A DNA stretch of 32,472 nucleotides from Syntrophomonadaceae bacterium (GTDB taxonomy: Bacteria > Bacillota > Syntrophomonadia > Syntrophomonadales > DTU052): NCBI GenBank assembly GCA_012729505.1, contig JAAYDA010000065.1, positions 1-32,472 on the forward strand, given 5' to 3'. The position numbers and the translations under genes are program-made. The notes beneath the pieces are model-generated. The model was given only the letters and a program-made list of their open reading frames with translations. It had not been told where the DNA came from and ran no database searches. Below, piece after piece: positions 29,274 to 32,417 of this stretch; position 1 is the first letter of the stretch, and the number at the start of each line of letters is the position of its first letter.

Positions 29274-29312
29274 TAGCAAAGTGAGGCGTTAGGCGAAACG
29301 GGGCAGATTCAG

Positions 29313-29354
29313 TCAGGACATAGGTAACAGAAATTGTTCAAGACATGGGTAACA
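29313..29354 (+). mobile_element. IS-end-like tandem repeat
   Basis: TCAGGACATAGGTAACA (29313-29329) and TCAAGACATGGGTAACA (29338-29354) are 15/17 identical with a 25-base period. Such repeated GACATRGGTAACA motifs resemble transposase-binding repeats at ends of IS481/IS3-like elements. No transposase gene is nearby, so this is probably a solitary end. Confidence 0.4.
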
Positions 29355-29472
29355 CTTCTTACAAAATAATAGATGAAGAAATCATAACGAATCTGCGTAA
29401 ATCTGTGTTAAGCAGCGTCTATAAAACCCTTAGTCGAGACTATTAGGAGAGATTTGGCTTCCGCATATGAAT

Positions 29473-29525
29473 AAAAGCGGAGATAGCGTTTAAGCCTGGC
29501 AGGCTGCCCGCCTGTCTCCGCTTTT
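29473..29525 (+). terminator. Terminator-like hairpin after efp
   Basis: Arms AAAAGCGGAGA (29473-29483) and TCTCCGCTTTT (29515-29525) pair perfectly, and TTTTTAT follows. The inside can form CAGGC/GCCTG (29500-29514) or, alternatively, AGCCT/AGGCT (29493-29505). It likely ends the aroQ-pepP-efp transcript. Confidence 0.65.
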
Positions 29526-29544
29526 TATCCGATGACTAATCTGT

Positions 29545-29583
29545 CCTTGGGCACCCGCCTCTATAGGCGGCGGGTGCCCAAGG
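29545..29583. repeat. 15-bp perfect inverted repeat
   Basis: CCTTGGGCACCCGCC (29545-29559) and its exact complement (29569-29583) enclose nine bases. No U-tract follows on either strand, so it is not a standard terminator. Confidence 0.6.
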
Positions 29584-29607
29584 GCAGTTAAGTCCCTGGA
29601 TTCGTGC

Positions 29608-29651
29608 GACTAAGATTCAGGTGGAGTTTTGACTCCACCTGAATCTTAGTC
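29608..29651. repeat. 20-bp perfect inverted repeat with 4-base loop
   Basis: The arms 29608-29627 and 29632-29651 are exactly complementary (starting GACTAAGATTCAGG) around TTTG. A T-rich stretch appears about 20 bases later (TTTATTTTTTTC). It could be a second terminator or a dispersed palindromic repeat. Confidence 0.7.
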
Positions 29652-29700
29652 TTACTTTATCGGTTTGATTTATTTTTTTCTGAATACACCAAGCCCCGCC

Positions 29701-30103
29701 ACATTTTTGCAGGATTATGTCAATGATCAGGAAAATGTCATAAAGAGACTGGCGGGAGGCACACATACTTTAGCAGAGATTTGGCTTCCAGCTTCGATCC
29801 GGATTGAATTCCACTTGCTCCCGGAATGAGAACCGGCAACCTCAACTGCTCGGATTCGGCCTCCGAGCAGCACACCGCCAATTCGCCCTCCATGGCTCAG
29901 GAGGCGGACTCGGGACCTCCTGTCCCTCGGCTGCTCTTCTGCCTCACCTTCGCAGGTGTTTGCTCGGTTCTCATCCCCACGGTCGCTACGCTGGAATTCA
30001 TCTCGTGTCTTCGCACCCGGTTTCCGGATTGTGGGATGACATTTTCCATGATGACTTATACCATGACATTATCGCTGATCAACAACACATTTCTGCAGGA
30101 TTA
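29701..30103. repeat. Nested flanking repeats around the structured block
   Basis: ACATTTTTGCAGGATTA (29701-29717) recurs as ACATTTCTGCAGGATTA (30087-30103), 16/17 in direct orientation. Inside them GGAAAATGTCAT (29730-29741) recurs inverted as ATGACATTTTCC (30036-30047). Together they bracket the hairpin-rich block like the ends of a small element. Confidence 0.45.
29805..30000. ncRNA. Candidate structured RNA or small non-coding element
   Basis: The block is closed by TGAATTCCA/TGGAATTCA (29805-29813 with 29992-30000) and by a 16-bp bulged stem (29823-29839 with 29960-29976). Inside are hairpins CTGCTCGGA/TCCGAGCAG (29846-29870), CCTCC/GGAGG (29887-29904), GGGAC/GTCCC (29912-29926) and CACCT/AGGTG (29945-29958). 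The open frames here are rich in Ser, His, Pro and Arg, overlap each other and lack ribosome sites, so they are not genes. A folded RNA, such as a HEARO-like element, or a MITE-like transposon are both possible; strand unknown. Confidence 0.35.
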
Positions 30104-30120
30104 ATTGCTATTCTTAATGG

Positions 30121-30126
30121 TATAAT
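30121..30126 (+). promoter_or_regulatory. -10 box placed for leaderless transcription of DUF1538 gene
   Basis: A perfect TATAAT ends seven bases before the ATG at 30134. Transcription would begin at or next to the ATG. No Shine-Dalgarno sequence is present. The -35 region is unclear and coincides with the repeat ending at 30103. Confidence 0.5.
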
Positions 30127-30133
30127 TTAGAAT

Positions 30134-31774
30134 ATGAAATTTTTCAACACACTTAAAGAGGTTTTTTTATCGTCGTTGCCGTTGGCAGTGATCATCATAA
30201 TTGTCTGTGGATTCATAGAGCCAATGGAAAACAGTTTCGATTATGTGAAGCTGGCCGTGGGGTATTTGGGTGTTGTAGTCGGACAGGCCTTTTTTTTAGA
30301 CGGGCTTGATATCAGCATTTTACCCATAGGAAAACTGGTGGGCAGTTCACTAATAAAGCTGAAAAAGGCGATTTTTATAATCCTGGTCGGCTTCTTGTTC
30401 GGACTTATGGGCACCGTGGCCGAACCGGCCCTTTGGGTTTTGGCGAAGCAGACCCACATGATATTGGATGGCGTAAACGAGTTAGTATTCGTATGGGTTC
30501 TAAGCAGCGGAATAGGCGTGTTCGTCGGGTTCGCACTGTTCAGAATTCTAAGAAACCTGGATATCAAAGTTGTTTTTATTGTACTATATATTTTAATATT
30601 TCTTATGGTCCCTTTTGTTCCCGAGGAGTTTATCGCCCTGGCTTTTGATGGCAGCGGTGCAACGACGGGTGATGTTTCGGTGCCGTTTATCCTCGCGCTG
30701 GGGTTGGGTATTTCGGCCACGATGTCAAAATCCAAAACTAACGACGATACTTTCGGAATAATTGGACTGGCGTCAGTGGGGCCGATTATGGCGCTGTTCA
30801 TTTACGGCATAATTTTGAAGGCAGGCTACGGCGGAACAATGCCCCCTGCCGGGGTATACAATCCGGGGGCAATAAATAATCTGGGCGAAATAATTGTTTC
30901 CAATTTGGGCAGCGTTGCCTTGGCGCTTTTACCGATTGTGCTTGTTTTTTTGCCATTTCAGCGTTTTTTGATTAAGCTGTCCAGAGCGGAACTTAGAAAG
31001 ATTATGCTGGGAATGATGGTCGTATACGTGGGGCTGCTCATCTTTCTGTCAGGAATTGACTTCGGTTTTGCGTTCGCGGCCAAATATATTGGTGAAGTAT
31101 TTTTGGATCCCACCCGCCCCGAGTGGTTTAAATGGCTGCTGCTGGTGATCGGATTTGTGCTGGGTATGGCTATAACGCTGTCAGAGCCAGCAGTCACCGT
31201 ACTGGGGAAACAACTTGAAGAAATAACCAATGGTCATATCAAGGAGATGGTCATACGTATAACATTAGCCATAGGCATAGGTTTTGCGGCGCTGATTTGT
31301 ATGGTGAAAATTCTAACCCAAATTAACATTCTCTGGTTTTTGGTTCCGCTTTATGCTATAGCATTGATCATGCTTAGATTTTCATCTAAGCTTTTCGTAG
31401 GCTTGGCCTTCGATTCCGGCGGTGTCACCGGGGGCGCGTTGACATCAGCGTTTTTAACCCCGCTTACGCTGGGGACGGCACAAGCTGTTGCCGCATCAGC
31501 AGGGCAGGGCGCCCAATCGGTTTTGACCAATGGGTTTGGAATAATAGCCTTTATCTCAGTTACCCCTTTAATAGCAGTGCAAACTTTAGGTATAATTTAT
31601 GATATACGGCTTAAGAAAGAACAGCGGCTCATTACTGAAGCCGAGTTAATGGAACTGGAGGAACTAACTTCGCTTGCCATGCATGCAGATAAAACGGAAA
31701 TAGATGATACGCAAAAAAAAGGCAAAGCTGACTATGAAGGCTCAGTCGGGGAGGTAAATGATTGCAATGAATAA
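30134..31774 (+). CDS. DUF1538 integral membrane protein, internally duplicated
   Basis: The 546-residue protein has about 12-14 hydrophobic segments and matches the DUF1538 family, of unknown substrate. Two homologous halves are visible: EPALWVLAKQ (97-106) against EPAVTVLGKQ (351-360); LAFDGSGATTG (169-179) against LAFDSGGVTGG (424-434); GIIGLASVGP (208-217) against GIIAFISVTP (469-478). Conserved E-P, D and G-rich re-entrant-like motifs in each half suggest a transporter or channel. A charged cytoplasmic tail (about 490-546) could bind the PII-like proteins encoded next. No ribosome site precedes the ATG. The gene overlaps the first PII-like gene. Confidence 0.85.
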   Translation: MKFFNTLKEVFLSSLPLAVIIIIVCGFIEPMENSFDYVKLAVGYLGVVVGQAFFLDGLDISILPIGKLVGSSLIKLKKAIFIILVGFLFGLMGTVAEPALWVLAKQTHMILDGVNELVFVWVLSSGIGVFVGFALFRILRNLDIKVVFIVLYILIFLMVPFVPEEFIALAFDGSGATTGDVSVPFILALGLGISATMSKSKTNDDTFGIIGLASVGPIMALFIYGIILKAGYGGTMPPAGVYNPGAINNLGEIIVSNLGSVALALLPIVLVFLPFQRFLIKLSRAELRKIMLGMMVVYVGLLIFLSGIDFGFAFAAKYIGEVFLDPTRPEWFKWLLLVIGFVLGMAITLSEPAVTVLGKQLEEITNGHIKEMVIRITLAIGIGFAALICMVKILTQINILWFLVPLYAIALIMLRFSSKLFVGLAFDSGGVTGGALTSAFLTPLTLGTAQAVAASAGQGAQSVLTNGFGIIAFISVTPLIAVQTLGIIYDIRLKKEQRLITEAELMELEELTSLAMHADKTEIDDTQKKGKADYEGSVGEVNDCNE

Positions 31775-32081
31775 TCATTTAGACGGCTTGGTTTTTTTGA
31801 CGGTGATAGCCGGAAGGAAGCAAAAGAGCCTGCTATTAGATGCGCTTACAGAGGCGGGAGGGCGGCTGGTAAATATCGTATACGGAAGAGGGACTGTCGA
31901 TGCCAATTACCTTAAATGCATATTTGGGTTGGTGCCGGAAGAATCCAAAGTGGTAATAATCTGCCTGTTGCCTGGCATAAAATCCGATGCCGTGTTGGAA
32001 ATGCTGATTAAGAAGTTTCGTTTTGACAAGCCAAATACAGGAATTGCCTTCACTATACCGGTAGCAAAGTTATCAATTTAA
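31767..32081 (+). CDS. PII-like signalling protein, first copy
   Basis: The roughly 104-residue protein has the PII ferredoxin-like pattern: VFLTVIAGRKQKSLLLDALT, then GGRLVNIVYGRGTV, a short T-loop region, SKVVIICLLPGIKSDAVLEM and KPNTGIAFTIPVAKL at the end. The classic K-x-E-x-x-T-loop with Tyr51 is not present. ATG 31767 is used (ATGAATAA overlap with the DUF1538 stop), GGGGAGG 12 bases upstream; ATG 31758 is closer to that site and also possible. It should be a small-molecule sensor for the membrane partner; ligand unknown. Confidence 0.8.
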   Translation: MNNHLDGLVFLTVIAGRKQKSLLLDALTEAGGRLVNIVYGRGTVDANYLKCIFGLVPEESKVVIICLLPGIKSDAVLEMLIKKFRFDKPNTGIAFTIPVAKLSI

Positions 32082-32099
32082 ATACAGAGGAATGAAAAA

Positions 32100-32417
32100 A
32101 TGGAAAAAAGCGAAAATATGAAAGCTCTGTTTGTAATCGTTAACGCCGGCTTCGCCGACGAGGTGGTGGACATCGCTCACCAGGCAGGTGCACGTGGAGG
32201 GACAATTATAAACGCCCGCGGTATCGGCCCGGTGCATAAATCTATTATGGGTATTACCGTAGACACTGAAAAGGAAATAGTATTAAGTGTCGTAAGCGGG
32301 GATACAGCAGAAAAAATTATGGCTGCCATCAAAGAAAAGGCAGGATTGAAATCCCCTGCCAAAGGTATTTGCTTTACTATGCCGGTTGAAAAACACTTGT
32401 TTAACAGCAGCTACTAG
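32100..32417 (+). CDS. PII-like signalling protein, second copy
   Basis: The 105-residue protein has ALFVIVNAGFADEVVDIAHQ, then AGARGGTIINARGIGP, EKEIVLSVVSGDTAEKIM and AKGICFTMPVEK. The order beta-alpha-beta, loop, beta-alpha-beta is that of PII proteins, and ARGGTI is typical. It is clearly different from the first copy (under about one third identical by eye), so the pair may form heteromers or sense different states. ATG 32100 follows AGAGGA by about ten bases. The 55 bases to the window edge hold no gene. Confidence 0.85.
   Translation: MEKSENMKALFVIVNAGFADEVVDIAHQAGARGGTIINARGIGPVHKSIMGITVDTEKEIVLSVVSGDTAEKIMAAIKEKAGLKSPAKGICFTMPVEKHLFNSSY

Follow-up and report, generated by a model that had tools for sequence, protein, structure and literature searches.

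PII signaling proteins are known to control membrane transporters. In GlnK-AmtB, a PII-fold protein is encoded beside its membrane transporter, and in SbtB-SbtA a dedicated PII-like protein with atypical loops stands beside a Na+-linked transporter; NifI1 and NifI2 are two adjacent, divergent PII paralogues that act on one target, nitrogenase. The transporters named as PII-controlled in a 2023 review are limited to those for ammonium, nitrate/nitrite, urea, and bicarbonate (PMC10710835). In YitT/DUF2179 proteins, for example Borrelia BB0017, a short-looped PII-like domain is attached to a membrane segment (PMC6516651). For DUF1538 membrane proteins, the tested members are UmpA and UmpB of Halomonas zhaodongensis, which act jointly as a Na+(Li+,K+)/H+ antiporter active in Escherichia coli and described in a paper that nowhere mentions PII (PMC5484666); a machine-learning study places DUF1538 among the key growth-pH genes (PMC13255231). 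Control of transporters by PII is established; its link to DUF1538, reported here, was found in no open-access paper, and DUF1538 itself is mentioned in only five of them.

The window, the whole 32,472-nucleotide stretch of a Syntrophomonadaceae genome analyzed here, carries genes for a DUF1538 protein and two PII-like proteins, PII1 and PII2. The membrane protein has the Pfam domain of UmpAB, and its repeats match UmpA and UmpB in order; UmpA and UmpB, however, are the products of two genes, whereas the window encodes a single protein far below the equivalog cut-offs and accompanied by PII. As with GlnK-AmtB, a PII-fold protein is encoded beside a membrane transporter and cytoplasmic docking is predicted, but the window set has neither an Amt domain nor a uridylylation site, its T-loop is shortened, and it includes two different PIIs. 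A dedicated PII-like protein with atypical loops likens it to SbtB-SbtA, although DUF1538 matches no SbtA fold and the number of PII domains varies from one to three. Paired, adjacent, divergent PIIs with one target recall NifI1-NifI2, except that the target here is a membrane transporter. YitT/DUF2179 proteins differ in having four predicted transmembrane segments and belonging to another family, which PII2 matches only at E=0.36.

A fused UmpA-UmpB-like membrane protein

The three genes lie in the order DUF1538, PII1, PII2 at the contig end (Table 1); the last 17 bp of the DUF1538 gene are shared with the start of PII1, and 55 bases separate the end of PII2 from that of the contig. Chance as the source of this arrangement is excluded because it recurs across genomes. 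The 860 bp upstream of the operon (29274-30133) contain no clear gene and show short repeated motifs (AGAGATTTGGCTTCC occurs twice); a search with Rfam for riboswitches ahead of the operon, of the sodium or any other class, matched nothing in the window.

Table 1. Features of the DUF1538-PII locus (window positions)
Feature	Coordinates	Strand	Basis
DUF1538 membrane protein, fused UmpA-like and UmpB-like repeats; predicted cation/H+ antiporter	30134..31774	+	546 aa ORF, PF07556
DUF1538 repeat 1 (UmpA-like); E97-P98, D172/P184 at helix breaks	30188..30814	+	PF07556, 196 bits
DUF1538 repeat 2 (UmpB-like); E351-P352, D427-G429	30935..31597	+	PF07556, 203.5 bits
Charged C-terminal helical tail of DUF1538 protein, residues 488-546	31595..31771	+	Modelled helix, charge count, L045/L046 fusions
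PII1, divergent PII-like protein, 107 aa	31758..32081	+	ORF, hhalign to PII2, fold of fused homologue
PII2, PII-like protein, 105 aa, short T-loop; conserved last domain	32100..32417	+	PF00543, PDB profile matches, position-specific subfamily

A Pfam search finds two copies of PF07556 in the 546-aa protein (E=3.4e-116), with the UmpA model fitting best over residues 24-227 and the UmpB model over residues 258-495. In an AlphaFold2 model built from 74 sequences (pLDDT 92.4, pTM 0.88), helices of repeat 1 are interrupted at 95/98 and 176/182 and those of repeat 2 at 349/352 and near 431, and a long C-terminal helix spans 470-533; the last 59 residues include 16 D/E and 8 K/R. These results, with the overlapping or near-contiguous ORFs and confirmed domains, bear out the initial annotation's description of a tight trio in which a duplicated polytopic membrane protein with a charged C-terminal tail is joined by two divergent PII-like proteins. 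Its statement that DUF1538 has no established substrate is refuted by the tested Na+(Li+,K+)/H+ antiport of UmpAB (PMC5484666).

The NCBIfam equivalog cut-offs (NF041627/NF041628) are not reached by the window protein, which scores 165.4 against 490 bits for UmpA and 141.4 against 500 bits for UmpB. Because it falls so far below both, we classify it from its sequence as a distant fused form and not as an UmpAB orthologue by the equivalog standard; for the same reason, its substrate could differ.

At cation/proton sites, acidic residues are expected at helix breaks. In repeat 1, E97 is kept in at least 225 of 226 aligned rows, and P98, D172, and P184 are each present in 226/226; in repeat 2, E351 and P352 are found in all 229 rows and D427 in 228/228. 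The four acidic residues are essentially invariant in fused and split DUF1538 proteins alike, and E97/D172 and E351/D427 make up a putative cation/proton site. A PDB search by sequence with DUF1538 gave no match, Foldseek of the model against the PDB reached at best E=0.042 (TM about 0.1-0.2) with no SbtA or other solved fold, and nothing in a viral structure library matched; on these searches, a known transporter fold was rejected.

Two PII-like proteins without nitrogen-type signatures

PII2 exceeds the P-II Pfam cut-off (PF00543; 38.3 versus 25 bits), whereas PII1 by sequence alone stays below it (15.8 bits, E=0.018); profile-profile comparison with hhalign nonetheless establishes their homology (probability 97.9, E=4e-13). 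Sequence-profile searches of the PDB reach PII chains from the PII2 family at E=4e-6 and from the PII1 family only at E=0.016. The PII1 domain of a natural DUF1538-PII1 fusion (L045) has, in its predicted structure, the beta-alpha-beta-beta-alpha-beta order of the PII fold, and Foldseek aligns it with PstA, GlnK, CPII, and PotN at probability 1.00, with no E-value below 0.001.

Two PROSITE patterns were used, PS00496, which we take to be the uridylylation-site signature in the T-loop, and PS00638, presumably the C-terminal/B-loop signature G-D-G-K-I-F. PS00496 occurs in 0/388 and PS00638 likewise in 0/388 of the PII domains examined. Aligned by eye, many of these domains have P-G-x-G-I-A-F in place of the B-loop signature and G-G-T-x-x-x-A-R-G at the position of the canonical T-loop base. 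The whole genome, scored 100% complete (G000), encodes no further PF00543 protein and no ammonium transporter domain (PF00909), hence no AmtB. With both signatures, any other PII, and AmtB all absent, nitrogen control by PII1 and PII2 appears unlikely; the canonical PII ligand motifs are missing as well.

PII genes adjoin DUF1538 in three phyla

Loci were drawn from plasmids, named genomes, and genome samples of three phyla: the window's own (taken as Bacillota), that of an Accumulibacter metagenome-assembled genome (MAG; taken as Pseudomonadota), and that of a Spirochaetaceae MAG (Spirochaetota). DUF1538 is found in 138/398, 126/398, and 41/198 genomes of these samples, respectively. Of the distinct DUF1538 loci, chosen by DUF1538 score, 219 had enough sequence after the gene to show a neighbor; in 218 of them one or more PII domains follow directly on the same strand (median gap -4 bp), and the remaining one, L216, belongs to a genome with a PII2-type match at another place. 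Because these loci had been picked by DUF1538 score, a PII2 profile was run, independently of them, over the 398 genomes of the Bacillota sample, with the window's own genome inside the 138: a PII2-type match is present in 136/138 DUF1538-positive and 8/260 other genomes. The outcome that the initial annotation named as refuting, genes that do not recur together, is thus contradicted by both counts. One of the two genomes missed has its locus cut by a contig end; the other has a DUF1538 pseudogene. That decayed copy (G056:C1:2161174-2161630) contains several internal stops, its genome has no PII2-type match, and transporter and PII seem to have been lost together.

The linkage extends toward the characterized antiporter. 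Near relatives of UmpA and UmpB, at 348-416 bits against cut-offs of 490/500, also have PII as the next gene downstream; no genome with UmpA above its equivalog cut-off was found, the best reaching 416 of 490 bits, and there too PII adjoins. No other recurrent neighbor that would name a substrate exceeds 8/80 loci. On a Methylocystis plasmid (L006:3267-5058), an umpA-umpB-PII cassette is surrounded by IS66 and IS4 transposase genes, which suggests that it moves as a unit. An Accumulibacter-named MAG contig (L043) carries a clostridial-like copy with 71% identity to the window protein, by binning error or transfer.

Architectures and PII subfamilies

The commonest arrangement is a fused DUF1538 gene followed by a tandem-PII gene (96 loci), and then split umpA-umpB with one PII (60 loci). 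The window's type, a fused DUF1538 with two PII genes, is found at 20 loci; a fused DUF1538 with a triple-PII gene at 17, all from the Spirochaetota sample; and split umpA-umpB with tandem PII or two PIIs at 12 and 8, respectively. The PII form follows the group: most Clostridia have a tandem-PII gene, Pseudomonadota a single PII, and Spirochaetota a triple-PII gene, which encodes ~370 aa after DUF1538 (L193-L209), a chain that could form a whole PII trimer alone. In two isolates, Lutispora thermophila (L045, 641 aa) and Scatolibacter rhodanostii (L046, 648 aa), DUF1538 and PII1 share one ORF, with PII1 continuous with the tail, and PII2 is a separate gene after it.

Domains sort by position. 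The PII2 type occupies the last place in 119/119 second-of-two and 17/17 third-of-three domains and accounts for 61/62 single domains, and 114/139 first-of-two domains fall in a clade of their own (support 98). Given these position-specific subfamilies, the window's two PIIs are the split counterpart of the tandem PII, with PII2 as the common core. The pair of paralogues, in which the initial annotation saw a hint of dual input or a hetero-oligomeric sensor, is not peculiar to this locus: it corresponds to the halves of the clostridial tandem PII, with one or three domains elsewhere.

In three Bacillota genomes (L247:4649-6592, L250:3979-5858, and L249:2828-4717), a PII2-type gene away from DUF1538 lies directly upstream of a gene for an ArsB/NhaD-like transporter (CitMHS, PF03600, E=9e-90), making this another antiporter family that has a partner from the PII2 branch. 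One 5.6-Mb genome (G346) combines a three-gene set closely related to that of the window (L248:5637-8025), a further DUF1538 locus whose PII is tandem (L121), and the ArsB-associated PII, so that several PII-transporter pairs coexist.

A model for PII-gated antiport and its alternatives

We think it somewhat more probable than its negation that DUF1538, PII1, and PII2 form one self-contained monovalent cation/proton antiport unit gated by dedicated PII-like sensors; the gating we infer from adjacency, co-occurrence, and fusion. The initial annotation's proposal of a possible PII-gated transporter draws strong support from the near-obligate adjacency in three phyla and from the two natural fusions, and the pairing of the PII2 type with ArsB/NhaD-like transporters and the growth-pH study (PMC13255231) fit the model as context. 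The transporter would be a fused UmpA-UmpB that exchanges a monovalent cation for protons, which would be bound by the invariant Glu (E97/E351, at the E-P helix break) and Asp (D172/D427, before the second break) of each repeat. Since PII1 and PII2 are each homologous to one half of the clostridial tandem PII, they would probably join in a single mixed ring. This ring would dock on the transporter's C-terminal helix at the cytoplasmic face; the natural fusions in L. thermophila and S. rhodanostii show the placement at this tail. Binding of an adenine nucleotide or other small metabolite may then alter docking, turning the antiporter on or off, and, by analogy with GlnK-AmtB and SbtB-SbtA, cation or pH export would be matched to the energy state of the cell. 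Regulation is not of the uridylylation-based nitrogen type, because the site is absent, and PII is not needed for transport as such, because UmpAB functioned in E. coli with no PII being described (PMC5484666).

Four other readings bear on this model. The one that survives best, although we consider it doubtful, is a PII-gated transporter with a different substrate (bicarbonate, ammonium, an organic anion, or a metal), with UmpAB antiport confined to one distant branch. The window protein is indeed distant from UmpA and UmpB, no substrate-specific neighbor gene recurs, and ammonium or bicarbonate is the substrate of the secondary transporters known to be gated by PII (PMC10710835); yet the invariance of the acidic residues across UmpA/UmpB-like and fused proteins suggests one chemistry, and the PII2 type pairs with an ArsB/NhaD-like transporter as well. 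It is less probable still, and in our judgment unlikely, that the PII-like proteins serve constitutively, as structural subunits or assembly factors, and not as ligand-responsive switches: many domains keep the glycine-rich effector-pocket motifs G-G-T-x-x-x-A-R-G and P-G-x-G-I-A-F, and no PII is reported for the UmpAB activity in E. coli, although near-obligate presence, gene fusion, loss of the canonical ligand motifs, and the divergence of the first PII domain would fit a structural role. The transporter could conversely be a membrane receptor that sequesters PII in response to ion flux or membrane potential, leaving free PII to signal elsewhere, much as AmtB sequesters GlnK (PMC10710835); with no other PII in the genome, the pair could be its only PII signal, but two genomes have PII1 covalently joined to the transporter and gene context suggests no second target, making this reading quite improbable. 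Ordinary GlnB/GlnK nitrogen regulators lying beside a membrane protein by accident, as the public plasmid annotation "P-II family nitrogen regulator" would have it, are scarcely credible and are refuted by near-universal adjacency (218/219), the lack of uridylylation or C-terminal P-II signatures (0/388), co-occurrence (136/138 versus 8/260), and a genome without AmtB.

Returning to the gated antiport unit, we hold a broader version of it tentatively, at slightly less than even confidence: a very widespread cation/proton antiporter of unsolved fold whose dedicated PII ring, built of one, two, or three domain types, would bind a new ligand and tie ion and pH homeostasis to a metabolite, with PII2 representing a general antiporter-regulating PII branch that also serves ArsB/NhaD-like exchangers.

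Implications

Roughly one in three of the Bacillota and Pseudomonadota genomes sampled, and one in five of the Spirochaetota genomes, contain DUF1538. Almost all the loci examined come with a PII of their own, publicly annotated as a "nitrogen regulator." Because the tested DUF1538 members antiport and PIIs almost constantly adjoin them, sometimes fused, these systems appear to be a sensor-controlled class of ion antiporter, widespread and so far undescribed, for which the natural DUF1538-PII1 fusions are a good structural target. If PII gates these antiporters, many "nitrogen regulator" annotations would be misleading, and PII signaling would extend to sodium, potassium, and pH homeostasis.
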